This document shows, in pieces, positions 14,827 to 36,849 of a stretch of DNA of 64,000 bases (positions within the stretch are counted from its first letter, which is position 1; every line of letters starts with the position of its first letter). Origin of the DNA: Anaerolineales bacterium (lineage in GTDB: Bacteria > Chloroflexota > Anaerolineae > Anaerolineales > UBA11579). The translations under genes were made by a program, and so were the position numbers. The notes beneath the pieces are model-generated. The model saw only the letters and a program-made list of their open reading frames with translations, was not told where the DNA came from and did no database searches. The stretch covers positions 834,480 through 898,479 of the forward strand of contig JAHBVC010000001.1 of NCBI GenBank assembly GCA_019637755.1, in the 5' to 3' direction.

Positions 14827-17800
14827 CTAATGGATCTGTAAATCTTCCACCAGCACGTTGTTGGGGCCAAGCAACCCTTCCAGGCGCGCCAGCAGCTCCT
14901 CGTTAAGGTCCGTAGTGTCATTGGGGAACTCGATTAGGTAACTACGCCGGCCCTCAAAGACATAGAAATTGAAGCGATCTTTGCCCGGGTAGCTGATGAT
15001 CTCGCCATGCACCCGGCGAATATGCAAGATATCGCGCAGCTTATCGCCCAGGCTGCGCAGATACAGCGTGGCGATGCGCGGCGGGTGCTCGGCGCCGCCG
15101 GGGGGCAGCGCCACCATCGGCGGCAGGGGCGCCGGGCGCGGCTGGGCGGGTAGCCCGGCGATTGCCGGACTGACGCTGGCGCCAAGCTCGCTGGCCGCCG
15201 TGCGGGCAGCCGGAGCGGCTGGGTCTTGTACCAGCGGCGCTTCCGCCGGCAGCTCGGCGGTATACACCGGCTCGCTGAGATCCATGGCGATGGTGTGCTC
15301 GTCGCCGCCCTCAAGCGGCACGCTGGCCATCGGGGCATGGTCCTGCGCCTGCACGTCCCACCAATCGTCAGCAAAGGTCTCCGGCTCGGCCGGCATCTCG
15401 GGCATGTCCATCTCAACCTCGGGCTCCTCTATGCCCGCCGCTTGGGGCGCCGGGCTGGCTGCCGCCGCCACCGGCTGGGCCGGCGGAATGGCGGCCGGCG
15501 CCGGCTCCAGTGGCTTCACCAGGTTGAAGTTGGTATCGATCTTATCCACCAGCACTTTGGGCTCAGCGTTTTCAGCATCTACCTTGCCCTCTACCAGCAC
15601 CAGGTTATCCAGTTGCACCAGGTTGGCAAAGCGCTTCCAGGTTTCGGGAAAGACGACAAGCTCAATTAACCCGAGGCCATCATCCAGGGTGACGAAGGCC
15701 ATATCCTTGCCGCGCTTGGTCTGGAAGCTACGGAAGGTCTTCACCTGCCCGGCCACGCGCACGCGTTCTTCGTGCTGGGCCTCGCCCAGCTCGCTGGATT
15801 TATGTGTCACCACCTCGGCGATGGTGCTCATCATCTGGCTCAGCGGATGGTCCGAAACATACAAGCCGATGACTTCGCGTTCCCAACCCAAGCGTTCGCG
15901 CCGGGCAAATTCTTCATCGGCATGGTTTGCCGGCGCCAAGCTGATCGCCTGCTGCATGCCGCTGCTGGCGTCAAACATGCTCAACTGGCCAGCCTCTTTG
16001 GCGGCAAAATGCGCCGTGCTGGTAGCTACCACCTGGTCCACCACCGCCAGCAAGGCATGCCGGTCACCAAACGCATCCAACGCGCCGGCCTTCACTAAAC
16101 TCTCCAGCGGGCGCTTGCCCACATGGCGCAGGTCGACGCGGTGGGCAAACTCGCTCAGGTTTTCGAAGGGTTGTGAGTGCCCGCCCTGCTCGCGCCCGGC
16201 AATAATCGCTTCGATCGCGCCGCGGCCCACGTTCTTCACCGCGCCCAAGCCAAAGCGGATGGCGGCTTGCGTCTGGCGATCCTCGACCGCAAAATCCCAC
16301 ACACTGTAGTTAATATCCGGGGGCAGGACGTCAATGCCCATGCGCTGGCAATCCGCAATGTAGGCGGCCACTTTATCCGTATCGCCCTGGGTGACCGAGA
16401 GCAAGGCGGTCATGTACTCCACCGCGTAGTGCGCTTTGAGGTACGCGGTTTGCACGGCGATCAGCCCATAATCGGCAGCGTGGGCCTTGTTGAAGCCATA
16501 GCGGGCAAAGTTCTCCCAGTCCGCAAAAATGCCTTCGGCGGTCTTTTCAGCAATGCCCTGCTTGACGGCGCCATCAATGAATTTTTTGCGGTGCTTGTGC
16601 AGTTTGGCTTCGATCTTCTTGGCAATCGCTTTGCGCAGATCATCGGCTTCGGAGGGGGTGTAGCCAGCCACCTGCATCACCGCGAACATTAGCTGCTCTT
16701 GGTACACCGGAATGCCATAGGTCTCGGCAAAGATACTTTCGAGCTTAGGGTGCGCGTATTTTACGTCTTCCTTGCCGTGCATACGCGCAATATAGGTGGG
16801 GATGAAATCCATCGGCCCGGGGCGGAACAGCGCCACCATTGCCACGGCGTTCTCCAGCATCTTGGGTTTCATCGCCACCATCCAGCGGCGCATGCCCGAA
16901 CCTTCAAACTGGAAGACGCCAGCGGTTTCGCCGCGCCCTAAGAGCTCATACGTAGCCGGATCATCGATGGGGATGTTGTACAGGTTGAGCTCTACCCCGT
17001 GGCGGGCATTGATCAGCGCGCAGGCGCGCTGCATGATGGTGAGCGTCGCCAAACCCAGGAAGTCCACCTTGAGCAGGCCCAGCGATTCAAGCGTGGCCAT
17101 CTCAAACTGGGTCAGCTTCTTGATCGGCGTATCGTCGGTTGCCGCGCCAGTGGGGCGATGCAGCGGCACATAGTTCACGATCTCATCGTCGGCAATCACC
17201 ACACCGGCGGCGTGTGTGCCCGCACCGCGGATCACGCCCTCCATCTGTATCGCGGTGTTGAGCAACTCCTTGGACGTGGGGTTGCTGTTGTATTCGGCCT
17301 TGAGCTCGCGAATCTCTTCCAGGGCCTCGGTGATCGTGACGGGTTTGCCGGGGATGTTGGGGATCAGCTTGGCCACGCGGTCCACATCGCTGAGCGGCAC
17401 ATTCATCACGCGGCCCACATCACGCACCGCAGCCCGCGCCTTGAGCTTGTTGAAAGTGATGATCGCCGCCACACGGTCATCGCCGTAGCGGTGGGCAGCG
17501 TACTCCAGCATGCGCGCCCGCTTATCGTCCTGGAAGTCCAGGTCAATATCGGGCATGCTGATGCGGTCTACATTAAGGAAGCGCTCGAAGATCAACCCGT
17601 GAGCCAGAGGGTCCACCAGGGTGATGCCCAGCAGATAAGCCACGATCGAACCGGCCGCCGAGCCGCGGGCGTTGTACCAAATGCCCTGCTCTTTGGCATA
17701 TTTGCACAGATCCCACACGATCAGGAAGTACGCGGCAAAGCCCATCTGAATGATCGTACTGAGCTCGTGCTCCAGGCGCGCCTGCACATCGGCGGCCTGT

Positions 17801-18741
17801 TCGCGGCCCGGGTACAGACGCGGCAGGCCCTGCTCGCACAGGCTGCGCAGGTAACTCTCCGGCGTGTGGCCAGAGGGCACGTCAAACTGCGGCAAGCGGT
17901 AGCCACGGGTGCTCAGGTCCACATTGCAGCGCTCGGCGATCAGCAGCGTATTGCTTAGCGCCTCGGGCACCTCGCCAAACAGTTGCTCCATTTCCTGGCT
18001 ACTGCGCAGGTAAAACTCACCGTTCATGCGCATGCGGCGCGCATCGCTGAGCAGCGAACTGGTTTGTACACACAGCAGCACGTCTTGCAAACGTGCATCT
18101 TCTTTATTGATGTAGTGCACGTCATTGGTGGCGATGTAGCGGCTCTGGTAGCGCGGGCCGAGCTCACGCAGGACGCGGTTGACGCGCTTCTGGTCTTCCA
18201 TTTCGTGCGGCTGCAACTCAAGGAAGAAGCGTTCGGGGCCAAAGACTTCGTAGTACCAATCCAGCTTGGCACGCGCCTCGGCCAGGTTCTCCTTTTGGAT
18301 GGCGCGTGGCACCTCGCCTGACAGACAGCCAGAGGTCGCGATCAGCCCTTCGGAATGGGCCGCCAAGAATTCACGATCGATACGCGGGAAGTAGTAGAAA
18401 CCGTCCAGTTGCGAGGCGGAGGCAATCTTGAGCAGGTTTTGGTAACCGGTGGCATTCTCGGCCAGCAGCAACATATGGAAGGATTTCTTGTCCAGCTCCG
18501 GGTCGCGCTGCTGCATGCTGCGCTGCGCCAGGTAGGTTTCAATGCCAATGATGGGCTTGACGCCGACATTGTTGGCGGCATTGAAGAAATCGATCACGCC
18601 ATACAACGCGCCATGGTCGGTGATCGCCAGGGCGGGCATCTCCAACTCCTTGGCGCGCGCCACCAGCTTGGGGATCTTGCTGAATCCGTCCAGCAGCGAG
18701 TACTCGGTGTGGACATGCAGGTGGACGAAGGAGGAGGTCAT
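14827..18741 (-). CDS. dnaE: DNA polymerase III alpha subunit (replicative)
   Basis: A 1304-residue replicative polymerase. The N-terminal PHP domain keeps the metal motif HLHVHTEYSLLDG and AITDHGALYG. The palm holds ARGSAAGSIVAYLLGIT and the catalytic PDIDLDFQD (about 396-402). Helix-hairpin-helix and OB-fold regions follow, the latter at VRVAGQVKTFRSFQTKRGKDMAFV. After the OB fold a Pro/Ala/Glu-rich linker of roughly 160 residues leads to a compact C-terminal domain (RIATLYLRSLGDK onward). Start ATG 18741 matches the family N-terminus. The intact PHP His residues leave open a PHP-based proofreading role, as known for several bacterial DnaE proteins. A second, shorter DnaE is at 33817. Confidence 0.95.
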   Translation of the reverse strand: MTSSFVHLHVHTEYSLLDGFSKIPKLVARAKELEMPALAITDHGALYGVIDFFNAANNVGVKPIIGIETYLAQRSMQQRDPELDKKSFHMLLLAENATGYQNLLKIASASQLDGFYYFPRIDREFLAAHSEGLIATSGCLSGEVPRAIQKENLAEARAKLDWYYEVFGPERFFLELQPHEMEDQKRVNRVLRELGPRYQSRYIATNDVHYINKEDARLQDVLLCVQTSSLLSDARRMRMNGEFYLRSSQEMEQLFGEVPEALSNTLLIAERCNVDLSTRGYRLPQFDVPSGHTPESYLRSLCEQGLPRLYPGREQAADVQARLEHELSTIIQMGFAAYFLIVWDLCKYAKEQGIWYNARGSAAGSIVAYLLGITLVDPLAHGLIFERFLNVDRISMPDIDLDFQDDKRARMLEYAAHRYGDDRVAAIITFNKLKARAAVRDVGRVMNVPLSDVDRVAKLIPNIPGKPVTITEALEEIRELKAEYNSNPTSKELLNTAIQMEGVIRGAGTHAAGVVIADDEIVNYVPLHRPTGAATDDTPIKKLTQFEMATLESLGLLKVDFLGLATLTIMQRACALINARHGVELNLYNIPIDDPATYELLGRGETAGVFQFEGSGMRRWMVAMKPKMLENAVAMVALFRPGPMDFIPTYIARMHGKEDVKYAHPKLESIFAETYGIPVYQEQLMFAVMQVAGYTPSEADDLRKAIAKKIEAKLHKHRKKFIDGAVKQGIAEKTAEGIFADWENFARYGFNKAHAADYGLIAVQTAYLKAHYAVEYMTALLSVTQGDTDKVAAYIADCQRMGIDVLPPDINYSVWDFAVEDRQTQAAIRFGLGAVKNVGRGAIEAIIAGREQGGHSQPFENLSEFAHRVDLRHVGKRPLESLVKAGALDAFGDRHALLAVVDQVVATSTAHFAAKEAGQLSMFDASSGMQQAISLAPANHADEEFARRERLGWEREVIGLYVSDHPLSQMMSTIAEVVTHKSSELGEAQHEERVRVAGQVKTFRSFQTKRGKDMAFVTLDDGLGLIELVVFPETWKRFANLVQLDNLVLVEGKVDAENAEPKVLVDKIDTNFNLVKPLEPAPAAIPPAQPVAAAASPAPQAAGIEEPEVEMDMPEMPAEPETFADDWWDVQAQDHAPMASVPLEGGDEHTIAMDLSEPVYTAELPAEAPLVQDPAAPAARTAASELGASVSPAIAGLPAQPRPAPLPPMVALPPGGAEHPPRIATLYLRSLGDKLRDILHIRRVHGEIISYPGKDRFNFYVFEGRRSYLIEFPNDTTDLNEELLARLEGLLGPNNVLVEDLQIH

Positions 18742-33647: not shown

Positions 33648-33648
33648 G

Positions 33649-33720
<72 letters not shown>

Positions 33721-33795: not shown

Positions 33796-33814
33796 TAGAA
33801 TAGAACATACGTTC
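33796..33814 (+). promoter_or_regulatory. dnaE2 promoter with LexA-type (SOS) operator
   Basis: GAACATACGTTC at 33803-33814 is a perfect match to the Gram-positive LexA/DinR core GAAC-N4-GTTC. It directly abuts the -10-like TAGAAT (33796-33801) and ends 2 nt before the dnaE2 ATG, so a bound repressor would cover the transcription start. Confidence 0.7.
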
Positions 33815-33816
33815 CC

Positions 33817-36800
33817 ATGGTTGTGCACCTCAACGCCCACTCACATTTCTCGCTGCTGGCCGGTGTGCCAGCGCCCGCCGAGCTAGCCGCCGCGGCCGCC
33901 GCCGCCGGGCAGCCCGCCCTGGCCCTCACCGATCACAACCGCTTGAGCGGCGTGGTGGAGTTTGCCGAAGCCTGTGCCAGCTACAACATCCAGCCGCTCT
34001 TCGGCCTGCACGTCGTGCTGCCGGGCGGCCTGCCCCTGGTGCTGCTGGCCGAAGACGCGCGCGGGTGGGCCAACCTATGCCGCCTAAGCAGCGCGCTACT
34101 ACACGAAGAGAATGACGAGCGCCGCCCGTTGTCGTTGGCCGAGCTCCAGCGCAATCACGCCGGGCTGCTGTGCCTGGCGGGCTCACCCGCCGTAGCAGAT
34201 CCCTTGATGCCCACAGCAGAGCTGACCGCCGTAGCGCAACTGTTCGCCGGGCGCGGCTACCTACAAGCGCCGCCCACGGCGGTGGAGCCCAGCCTGGCCC
34301 TGGCGCGCCAGCTGGGGCTGCCCGCCGTGGCCTGCTGGCCGGTCTACTACCTACAGCCCGAACAAGCCGAGCTGCAACGCACCCTGACGGCGATGCGGCT
34401 CAACACCCCCCGCCAGCGCCTGCCGGCTGGCGCCACGGCGCCGCCCCAGGCCTGGTTTCCCAGCCCGGCCGAGATGCACGCCGCCTACGCCCAGCACCCC
34501 TCCCTGTTGGAGGCTACCCACGCGGTGGCGGCGCGCTGTCACTTCCGCCTCGAGCTTAACCGCCCCAATTACCCTGAACTGCGCTTGCCCGCCGGGCAAA
34601 CGCCGATCGAAGCGCTGCGCCAGCAAACCCTGCAAGGCGCTGCGCGCTACTACCCGGAGCGCAGCGCGGCCTTCACCGCCCGCATGGAGCACGAACTGGC
34701 CAGCATCGAAGCCAGCGGTTACACCAGCTTGTTCCTGATCATGGCCGAGATCGTGGCTTTTGCGCGCCGGGCAGATGTGCCGCTCTCCTCGCGCGGCTCG
34801 GCGGCTTCTTCACTGGTGGCGCATTGCCTGGGCATCACAACGCCCGACCCCTTGCGGCTGAACCTGTACTTCGAGCGCTTCCTCAATCCGGCCCGCCCCA
34901 CCCCGCCGGACATTGACACAGATATCTGCTCCGCGCGCCGCCACGAGATCATTAAACATGTCTACCAGGAGTACGGGCCTACCCGCGTGGCACTGGTAGC
35001 CACCATCAACCGCTTCCGGCTGCGCTCCGCTTTGCGCGAAGTGGCCAAGGCGCACGGCCTAAACGCTGAGGAGATCAAGCGTATGGCCGCCCAGTTGCCC
35101 CACCGCTGGTGGCAGCCCGGCCAGCCACAAGACGCCGCCGAGCCCTACGCCGAGCTGCACACCCAGTTCACCAGCCCGCGCCAGCAAGCCGTCTTGCAGG
35201 AGGCAAGTGCCATTCTGGATATGCCCCACCATCTCTCGCTGCACCCCGGTGGCATCGTCATCGCCACCGGCTCGCTCACTGACAGTGTGCCTGTGCAGCA
35301 TGCCGCCAGCGGGCGCGCCGTCACCCAGTACGATCTGAGCGGCGTGCAAAAAGTGGGGCTGGTGAAGATGGACCTGTTGGCCACGCGCGGTCTGACCGTG
35401 TTGGGTGATGTCGCCCAGCACATTGCCCAGCACCATCCCCACTTTGGCCGTACGCGCCTGGAGGTGCTGGACAACATTCCCGATGGTGACCCGGCCACCG
35501 CCGAAACAGTGCGCAATGGGCGCACCATCGGCTGCTTTCAAATCGAAAGCCCCGGCATGCGCGCCACTCTGAAAGAAGTGCAATCCGATACGATCGATAA
35601 CATTATGGTGGCCCTGGCGCTGTTTCGCCCCGGGCCGCTCACCGGCGGCCTGAAGGATGCCTTCGTGCGCCGCCACCTGGGCCAAGAGCCCGTGCAGCAC
35701 GTCCACCCCGCGCTCAAGCCATTGTTGGAAGAGACGCACGGCGTATTCCTCTACCAGGAACAAGTGCTGCGCGTGGCCCATGAATTGGCCGGCTTCAGCC
35801 TGGCAGACTCTGATCTGCTGCGCCGGGCGATGAGCCATTTTGATCCTGGCAAGCAGATGCAAACCCTCAAAGAGAAGTTCATCGCCGGCGCCGCCCAACG
35901 CCACGGCGTGCCTGCCGCACAGGCCCAGCGCATCTGGGACATGATGGCCGCCTTCGCTGGCTACGGTTTCCCCAAGGCGCACGCCGCCTCCTACGCGCTG
36001 ACCGCCTGGCGCTCGGCCTGGTGCAAGACCCACTTCCCGGCGGAGTTCATGGCGGCAGTGCTGGCCAATTGGGGCGGCTACTATGATCAAAACACCTACC
36101 TGCTGGAAGCGCGCCGGCTGGGGCTGCCGCTGCACGCGCCACACATCAACCATTCGCAAGAGCAATTCAGCGTCAGCTACCACGCCGGCCAGCCGCACCT
36201 CTACATGGGGCTGGCCCAACTGCGCGAGCTCACCCGCAACACCCAGGCGCGCCTGATCGCCCTGCGCCCCTTCCATTCGCTCAGCGATCTGCTGGTGCGC
36301 GCCGCCCCACGCCGCGCCGAGGCGCGCAATCTGATCGAAGCCGGTGCGCTGGAGGGGCTGGGCAGCATTCCCAGCCTGCTCCATGCGCTGGAAAACGGCA
36401 GTTGGCTGCCCGGCCAGTTGCCCTTGTTTGATAGCACGCCCAGCGACCAGCCAGATTGGCCCGCGGCGCAAAAAGCTGCCGCCCAACTGCGCCTGCTGGG
36501 CGCCAACCTGGCAGCCCACCCGCTCGACGTATACGCCGCGCGCATCCAGCACGCGGGGGCGCTCAGCACGCTGGAGGCACAGGCCCGGCCAAACCAGATC
36601 ATACGCGTGGCGGGCATGCGCCAAAGCTGGCGGCGGGTACGCACCAGCGCCGGCGGCTATCTATACTTCATGGATCTGGCAGACTTAGAGGGTACGCTGC
36701 GCGTGGTCATCCCGGCTGAGGTCTATCGCCAGGGCCGCGCCAGCTTTCAGGGCGAGAGGGTACTTATGGTCGAGGGGCGTTTGGAGCTCGGGCGCGAAGC

Positions 36801-36849
36801 GGTGGAGCCACTGTTGCGCGCCAGCCGGGTGACGCATTTCGCCGGCTAG
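33817..36849 (+). CDS. dnaE2: Error-prone DNA polymerase DnaE2 (ImuC)
   Basis: A 1010-residue C-family polymerase, shorter than the DnaE at 14827 and lacking its C-terminal extension. Motifs are SSRGSAASSLVAHCLGIT, catalytic PPDIDTDICSARR (about 363-368), LHPGGIVIATGSL, LFRPGPLTGGLKDAF, YGFPKAHAASYALTAWRSAW and a final OB fold (IRVAGMRQSWRRVRTSAGG). The PHP start reads HLNAHSHFSLL, with Asn replacing the first His of HxH, so metal binding is probably lost. Such polymerases perform damage-tolerant mutagenic synthesis, usually in the SOS response, which fits the LexA-type box upstream. No imuA or imuB is adjacent. Confidence 0.93.
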   Translation: MVVHLNAHSHFSLLAGVPAPAELAAAAAAAGQPALALTDHNRLSGVVEFAEACASYNIQPLFGLHVVLPGGLPLVLLAEDARGWANLCRLSSALLHEENDERRPLSLAELQRNHAGLLCLAGSPAVADPLMPTAELTAVAQLFAGRGYLQAPPTAVEPSLALARQLGLPAVACWPVYYLQPEQAELQRTLTAMRLNTPRQRLPAGATAPPQAWFPSPAEMHAAYAQHPSLLEATHAVAARCHFRLELNRPNYPELRLPAGQTPIEALRQQTLQGAARYYPERSAAFTARMEHELASIEASGYTSLFLIMAEIVAFARRADVPLSSRGSAASSLVAHCLGITTPDPLRLNLYFERFLNPARPTPPDIDTDICSARRHEIIKHVYQEYGPTRVALVATINRFRLRSALREVAKAHGLNAEEIKRMAAQLPHRWWQPGQPQDAAEPYAELHTQFTSPRQQAVLQEASAILDMPHHLSLHPGGIVIATGSLTDSVPVQHAASGRAVTQYDLSGVQKVGLVKMDLLATRGLTVLGDVAQHIAQHHPHFGRTRLEVLDNIPDGDPATAETVRNGRTIGCFQIESPGMRATLKEVQSDTIDNIMVALALFRPGPLTGGLKDAFVRRHLGQEPVQHVHPALKPLLEETHGVFLYQEQVLRVAHELAGFSLADSDLLRRAMSHFDPGKQMQTLKEKFIAGAAQRHGVPAAQAQRIWDMMAAFAGYGFPKAHAASYALTAWRSAWCKTHFPAEFMAAVLANWGGYYDQNTYLLEARRLGLPLHAPHINHSQEQFSVSYHAGQPHLYMGLAQLRELTRNTQARLIALRPFHSLSDLLVRAAPRRAEARNLIEAGALEGLGSIPSLLHALENGSWLPGQLPLFDSTPSDQPDWPAAQKAAAQLRLLGANLAAHPLDVYAARIQHAGALSTLEAQARPNQIIRVAGMRQSWRRVRTSAGGYLYFMDLADLEGTLRVVIPAEVYRQGRASFQGERVLMVEGRLELGREAVEPLLRASRVTHFAG

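Follow-up and report, generated by a model that had tools for sequence, protein, structure and literature searches.

The palindrome GAACATACGTTC, which directly precedes the gene of an accessory C-family DNA polymerase, is best read as a LexA operator that would hold the gene off until the DNA is damaged, and the polymerase itself probably gains access to the sliding clamp on its own. We give this reading a probability of roughly 60%. The gene lies in a stretch of 64,000 nt that was analysed as a whole (the window); the DNA is from a relative of uncultured Anaerolineales (phylum Chloroflexota), and the genome comprises 2.26 Mb in two contigs and is 97% complete. The promoter region and the gene are arranged as follows.

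33648–33720, minus strand: tRNA-Lys (CTT), next gene upstream, transcribed divergently from the polymerase gene
33796–33801, plus strand: −10-like hexamer TAGAAT
33803–33814, plus strand: predicted LexA operator GAACATACGTTC, from sequence and conservation
33817–36849, plus strand: accessory C-family DNA polymerase of 1010 residues, with PHP, Pol3 palm/fingers and HhH domains

In the proposed mechanism, LexA would bind between the −10 hexamer and the ATG and thereby cover the predicted start site of transcription. RecA-stimulated self-cleavage of LexA would free the polymerase gene together with lexA, recA2, nurA, greA and others. The product would be a polymerase from a lineage next to DnaE2 that has kept its catalytic residues and lost the PHP proofreading residues, and it would probably get to stalled forks via its own clamp motif and not via ImuB. 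LexA binding, induction, low fidelity and clamp-mediated recruitment are what we infer from the sequence.

Gene start and promoter

The ATG of the polymerase gene is located at 33817, and GAACATACGTTC ends 2 bp upstream of it. An earlier note on this DNA had described a perfect GAAC-N4-GTTC palindrome between the −10 box and the ATG, and it is indeed present there. Contrary to the title of that note, the box does not overlap the gene start; it adjoins the start and lies outside the open reading frame. The hexamer TAGAAT is regarded as the −10 element because 8 of 10 relatives have TATAAT or TACAAT at that position. A promoter scanner found no TTGACA/TATAAT pair, and no −35 element was recognised at the polymerase gene. 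From the position of the −10 element, transcription is predicted to start at about 33808, inside GAACATACGTTC, which would leave an mRNA leader of about 9 bases. According to PMC3323433, GAACN4GTTC is the LexA box of B. subtilis and M. tuberculosis; the box at the polymerase gene has the identical palindrome and spacing in a different phylum.

Domains and phylogenetic placement of the polymerase

The polymerase consists of PHP, Pol3, finger and HhH domains, with a sub-threshold OB match ending at residue 995 of 1010. It is without the C-terminal tau-binding domain, a DnaE2 criterion, and its PHP site is degraded (HLNAH and FGLH versus HLHVH and IGIE in DnaE1), which is another. The motifs discussed below and the replicative polymerase are located as follows.

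34903–34929, plus strand: PPDIDTDIC, first two catalytic aspartates, by alignment
35362–35391, plus strand: VKMDLLATRG, third catalytic aspartate, by alignment
36415–36429, plus strand: QLPLF, predicted sliding-clamp-binding motif (residues 867–871; consensus QL[S/D]LF)
14830–18741, minus strand: replicative DnaE1 of the same genome (counted from the first ATG in its frame and without the stop codon)

The aspartates of PPDIDTDIC were placed by E. coli residue numbering, and all three catalytic aspartates are conserved in 40 of 40 aligned rows. DnaE1 and the accessory polymerase are about 15 kb apart in the window, and the spacing is about 19–30 kb in six other genomes of the genus (G001, G002, G004, G007, G008 and G010).

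The polymerase falls in a separate lineage, probably the sister of DnaE2; the members of this lineage are called orphans here. In each of three trees, the orphan rows are united in a single clade (100/100) that excludes the DnaE2 rows as well as the DnaE1 or DnaE1/3 rows. The first, second and third trees contained 20, 20 and 13 orphans, 8, 14 and 25 DnaE2 rows, and 12, 9 and 7 DnaE1 or DnaE1/3 rows, respectively. Left out of the second tree were close rows (three orphans and three DnaE1), the long rows of phage Leo2 and Butyrivibrio, and four orphans and one DnaE1. Of 30 DnaE2 loci fetched from Chloroflexota, 15 went into the third tree, which was computed with a simpler model (LG+G4). Taken alone, the five named DnaE2 rows of the first tree do not form one clade; together with three Anaerolineales DnaE2 rows they do (100/100).

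Profile scores are consistent with this placement. The polymerase reaches 661.8 bits with the NCBIfam model of the error-prone polymerase (PRK05672), 277 short of the cut-off of 939, and 678.4 bits with the NCBIfam model of the replicative DnaE1, against a cut-off of 1002. Three other orphans are likewise under both cut-offs. We therefore rejected a strict DnaE2/ImuC identity, for which the polymerase lies outside the DnaE2 clade in all three trees and below the model cut-off, and the label dnaE2/ImuC given in the earlier note was not retained. A DnaE1 identity was rejected in the same way, from the three trees and the score.

It is possible, although rather unlikely, that the polymerase is a fast-evolving DnaE2 and that the separate clade reflects a long-branch or sampling effect. 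Its domain set equals that of DnaE2, including the missing C-terminal domain, and the orphan clade has a long stem. When two phage PolC-like proteins serve as the outgroup, the orphan clade is sister to DnaE2 (SH-aLRT 100). This rooting is weak: it comes from a quick search with 9 orphans and the two phage proteins, and the DnaE1 rows do not form one clade in it. However, the orphans fall outside a clade (100/100) made up of the 25 DnaE2 rows of the third tree, of which 18 come from Chloroflexota genomes, and five ImuB-linked DnaE2 proteins score 925–1518 on PRK05672, the lowest (L130, 924.9) being just under the cut-off. Moreover, genome G032 has a tree-placed DnaE2 in addition to two contig-end fragments whose identity with the window protein is 54% and 49%. 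The separate lineage is thus the placement that we prefer.

The known accessory polymerases differ from this lineage in several respects. DnaE2/ImuC is described as part of a LexA-controlled imuA-imuB-dnaE2 cassette in M. tuberculosis and Caulobacter (PMC3919608, PMC10421592). Like that enzyme, the window protein is a non-replicative DnaE without the C-terminal domain, has an adjacent LexA box and co-occurs with DnaE1 in the same genome; unlike it, the window protein belongs to a separate clade, has no ImuB that we could find and scores below the DnaE2 cut-off. The C-terminus of the window protein, RVTHFAG, is without SRDF[H/R], which about 77% of DnaE2 are reported to have (PMC3919608, PMC10421592). 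The B. subtilis-type DnaE3 is reported to be both SOS-inducible and error-prone in some cases (PMC3919608), and it co-occurs with PolC. In the third tree, the DnaE3 of Listeria falls among the DnaE1 rows and not in the orphan clade.

Distribution of the orphan lineage

Matches to the polymerase (E < 1e-200, a threshold that fragments and truncated genes escape) were found in 15 of 396 genomes of the class, including the window's own; the distribution of the clade is therefore patchy. A scan of named genomes gave 17 loci, all titled Anaerolineales, Anaerolineaceae, Anaerolineae or Chloroflexi. For comparison, the cut-off of the error-prone model is exceeded in 41 of 151 genomes of the phylum. 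Four one-contig Chloroflexota genomes of 1.5–1.9 Mb (G437, G466, G497 and G525) have a DnaE just under that cut-off, at 860–894 bits.

Clamp motif and possible partners

DnaE2 was long held to require both ImuA and ImuB, and groups without the two have been described only recently. The earlier note had expected no adjacent imuA or imuB, and this holds: the sequences flanking the orphan loci, a few kb at most, contain no ImuB-like match, and such a match was present in the flanks of 21 of 30 loci fetched from genomes above the error-prone cut-off. In each of the 11 genomes of the genus, three of which are 68–76% complete, the Pfam models IMS and IMS_C identify one gene apiece, and by position both identify the same one. 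Of five ImuB references, IMS matches four, and either IMS or IMS_C matches all five. Since no second Y-family gene occurs in these 11 genomes, no ImuB was found. The lone Y-family gene in G000, the window's own genome, is an active-type dinB. A RecA model, which may miss a divergent ImuA, detects only two full-length RecAs in G000.

The ImuB clamp motif is reported to be essential for the mycobacterial mutasome (PMC10421592), and the clamp-motif consensus is given as QL[S/D]LF, with weaker variants in DnaE2 (PMC3919608). The window protein has a canonical QxxLF, unlike 14 DnaE2 references: none of these has QxxLF at the corresponding position of the alignment, where three read PLPLF and the others have a gap or other residues. 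In the first alignment QxxLF is present in 20 of 20 orphan rows, and in a wider set in 19 of 24. The five exceptions are G251, with QMSFF, and the deeper-branching G061, G051, G275 and G206, with weaker forms. The QLPLF of the polymerase and the retention of QxxLF among the orphans suggest that ImuB would not be needed to reach the clamp.

Accessory DnaE2-like polymerases from genomes without ImuA and ImuB are already in print as DnaE2B and DnaE2X, a few of them without any known partner in the account of PMC12926913; the lack of ImuA and ImuB is therefore not new in itself. The window protein resembles these groups as an accessory DnaE2-like polymerase in a genome in which no ImuB was found. 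The comparison of the orphan clade with DnaE2B and DnaE2X is by published description, our trees being without labelled rows of either group. The string 'Chloroflex' is absent from the main text of PMC12926913, and no Bacteroidetes DnaE2B reference was among the matches listed in plasmid searches.

These groups provide the model for a second alternative, in which the operator is real and the polymerase works in a DnaE2B-type mutasome with RecA and an active DinB that carries a tail like the N-terminus of RecA. DnaE2B-PolY-RecA modules are described in genomes without ImuA and ImuB (PMC12926913), and the DinB here ends with LDAALKSVQARFGATSLTRAS, which by eye is like the N-terminal helix of both RecAs; a PolY partner is therefore possible. 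Nevertheless, we consider this unlikely. In G000, dinB is not adjacent to the polymerase gene and has no LexA-type site at its start at one mismatch or fewer, most members of the clade retain QxxLF, and the clade lies outside the sampled DnaE2 rows in trees without identified DnaE2B or DnaE2X references. Two one-mismatch words do occur at the dinB locus of G000, one inside the IMS match and the other about 400 bp before it.

Access to the clamp by the polymerase's own motif thus remains the reading that we favour. A LexA-switched lineage with a canonical clamp motif and no ImuB offers a clean way to ask whether the main role of the partner is to give access to the clamp. A broader proposal is more doubtful: the orphans might constitute a further accessory DnaE class, so far confined to Anaerolineae, that would carry out SOS mutagenesis alone by its own clamp binding, without a Y-family partner and from a near-leaderless mRNA switched by LexA on the start site.

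Conservation of the box at the polymerase gene

GAACATACGTTC is the sole exact GAACN4GTTC in the window, a count that is uninformative by itself because at least one such word occurred in 37 of 100 shuffled windows (mean, 0.47). The whole genome contains 10 exact sites and 30 of the reversed word. Two of the 10 (L004 and L009) are within open reading frames of 240 and 209 residues, and the other eight are before or between genes, if the open frame upstream of lexA (L008) and the antisense frame at L011 are regarded as non-coding. A relaxed pattern, CGAACRNNYGTTYG with two mismatches, gave 43 matches versus 27 expected and was set aside.

The informative evidence is conservation. An exact box stands upstream of the polymerase gene in 11 of 38 regions from the clade, and in 0.15% of mononucleotide-shuffled upstream regions. 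These 11 are G012, from another genus, and every genus genome in which the gene is present (10 of 10); the gene was not found in the genus genome G003 (76% complete). The box begins 12–16 bp before the aligned protein start in all 11, and the invariant columns are 8 of 8 in the palindrome, 1 of 4 in the spacer (which has six forms), 1 of 30 upstream and 0 of 10 downstream. The 11 sequences are not independent, because they are related (G007 and G008, as well as G009 and G010, are near-copies at the box region). A chance match without function is highly improbable, because, against its frequency in shuffled windows and the excess of the reversed word in the genome, the box is conserved in 11 genomes with invariance limited to the palindrome and a nearly fixed position.

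The exact box is absent from the other 27 upstream regions. In eight of them a site with one mismatch lies within about 130 bp, compared with 4.1% of shuffles. Five of these eight loci are related (two titled Anaerolineaceae and three of family f13) and show TATAAT followed by GAATN4GTTC or GAACN4ATTC. In the remaining 19 regions, that distance contains no one-mismatch site either. A box in every member was thus not found, and the evidence for LexA control does not extend to the whole clade.

LexA and the putative SOS regulon

The earlier note had predicted a Gram-positive-type LexA, whose gene should have the same box. The genome encodes a LexA with the LexA DNA-binding and S24 peptidase domains (Pfam), and the lexA promoter carries the exact box GAACGCTTGTTC; the lexA promoters of G007, G008 and G010 also have an exact box. 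LexA was found in 20 of 21 further genomes of the class, the exception being G031. An exact GAACN4GTTC precedes lexA in 19 of these 20 genomes, which makes it very probable that this is the LexA box of the class. The boxes are typically near TTGACA and of the form caGAACN4GTTCgtgt. For five lexA loci from four genomes the start was not located; there the whole locus was searched and the boxes were read by eye. The lexA box of G005 has one mismatch, and G275 has two LexA loci, one with the box and one without.

In the literature searched, with most subscription papers outside its scope, neither LexA in Anaerolineae nor the orphan polymerase clade turned up as a subject, and there was no earlier study of an SOS regulon in this group, which is outlined here. 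For the genus survey, 16 of 16 sites were fetched for G007, 21 of 23 for G008 and 20 of 21 for G010, and the names greA, nurA and LexA were assigned from Pfam. lexA, the polymerase gene, greA and an ORF of 142 residues are boxed in all three genomes, and nurA and an ORF of 73 residues in two. In the window's genome, two sites with one mismatch each lie 31 bp apart at recA2, and an exact site is present in G007 and G010; the recA1 locus has no site at one mismatch or fewer. Loci L063 and L064 hold two complete recA genes, with LexA-type sites upstream of the second only.

At greA, the box adjoins what by eye resembles a −35 element in four genomes of the genus (L003, 1501–1512; L072, L093 and L107), which suggests that this transcription elongation factor is under SOS control. 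A LexA-type box also precedes nurA, which encodes an archaeal-type end-resection nuclease, in three genomes of the genus (L012, 1501–1512; L067 and L101). The 142-residue protein (L011, 1501–1942; L069, L083 and L103) belongs to no Pfam family, appears HTH-like by eye and is conserved together with its box; in G000, G007 and G008 its ATG lies one base past the box. PHROGs gave no clear family for the 142- and 73-residue proteins and two others (best E value, 0.021). A second LexA-like DNA-binding protein is encoded at C1:346767. Apparent mobile regions (L005, L010 and L002) contain two more boxes, close to integrase-like or HTH genes, as well as a second LexA-domain protein, and an element like that of L010, with its box, is also present in G010 (L088).
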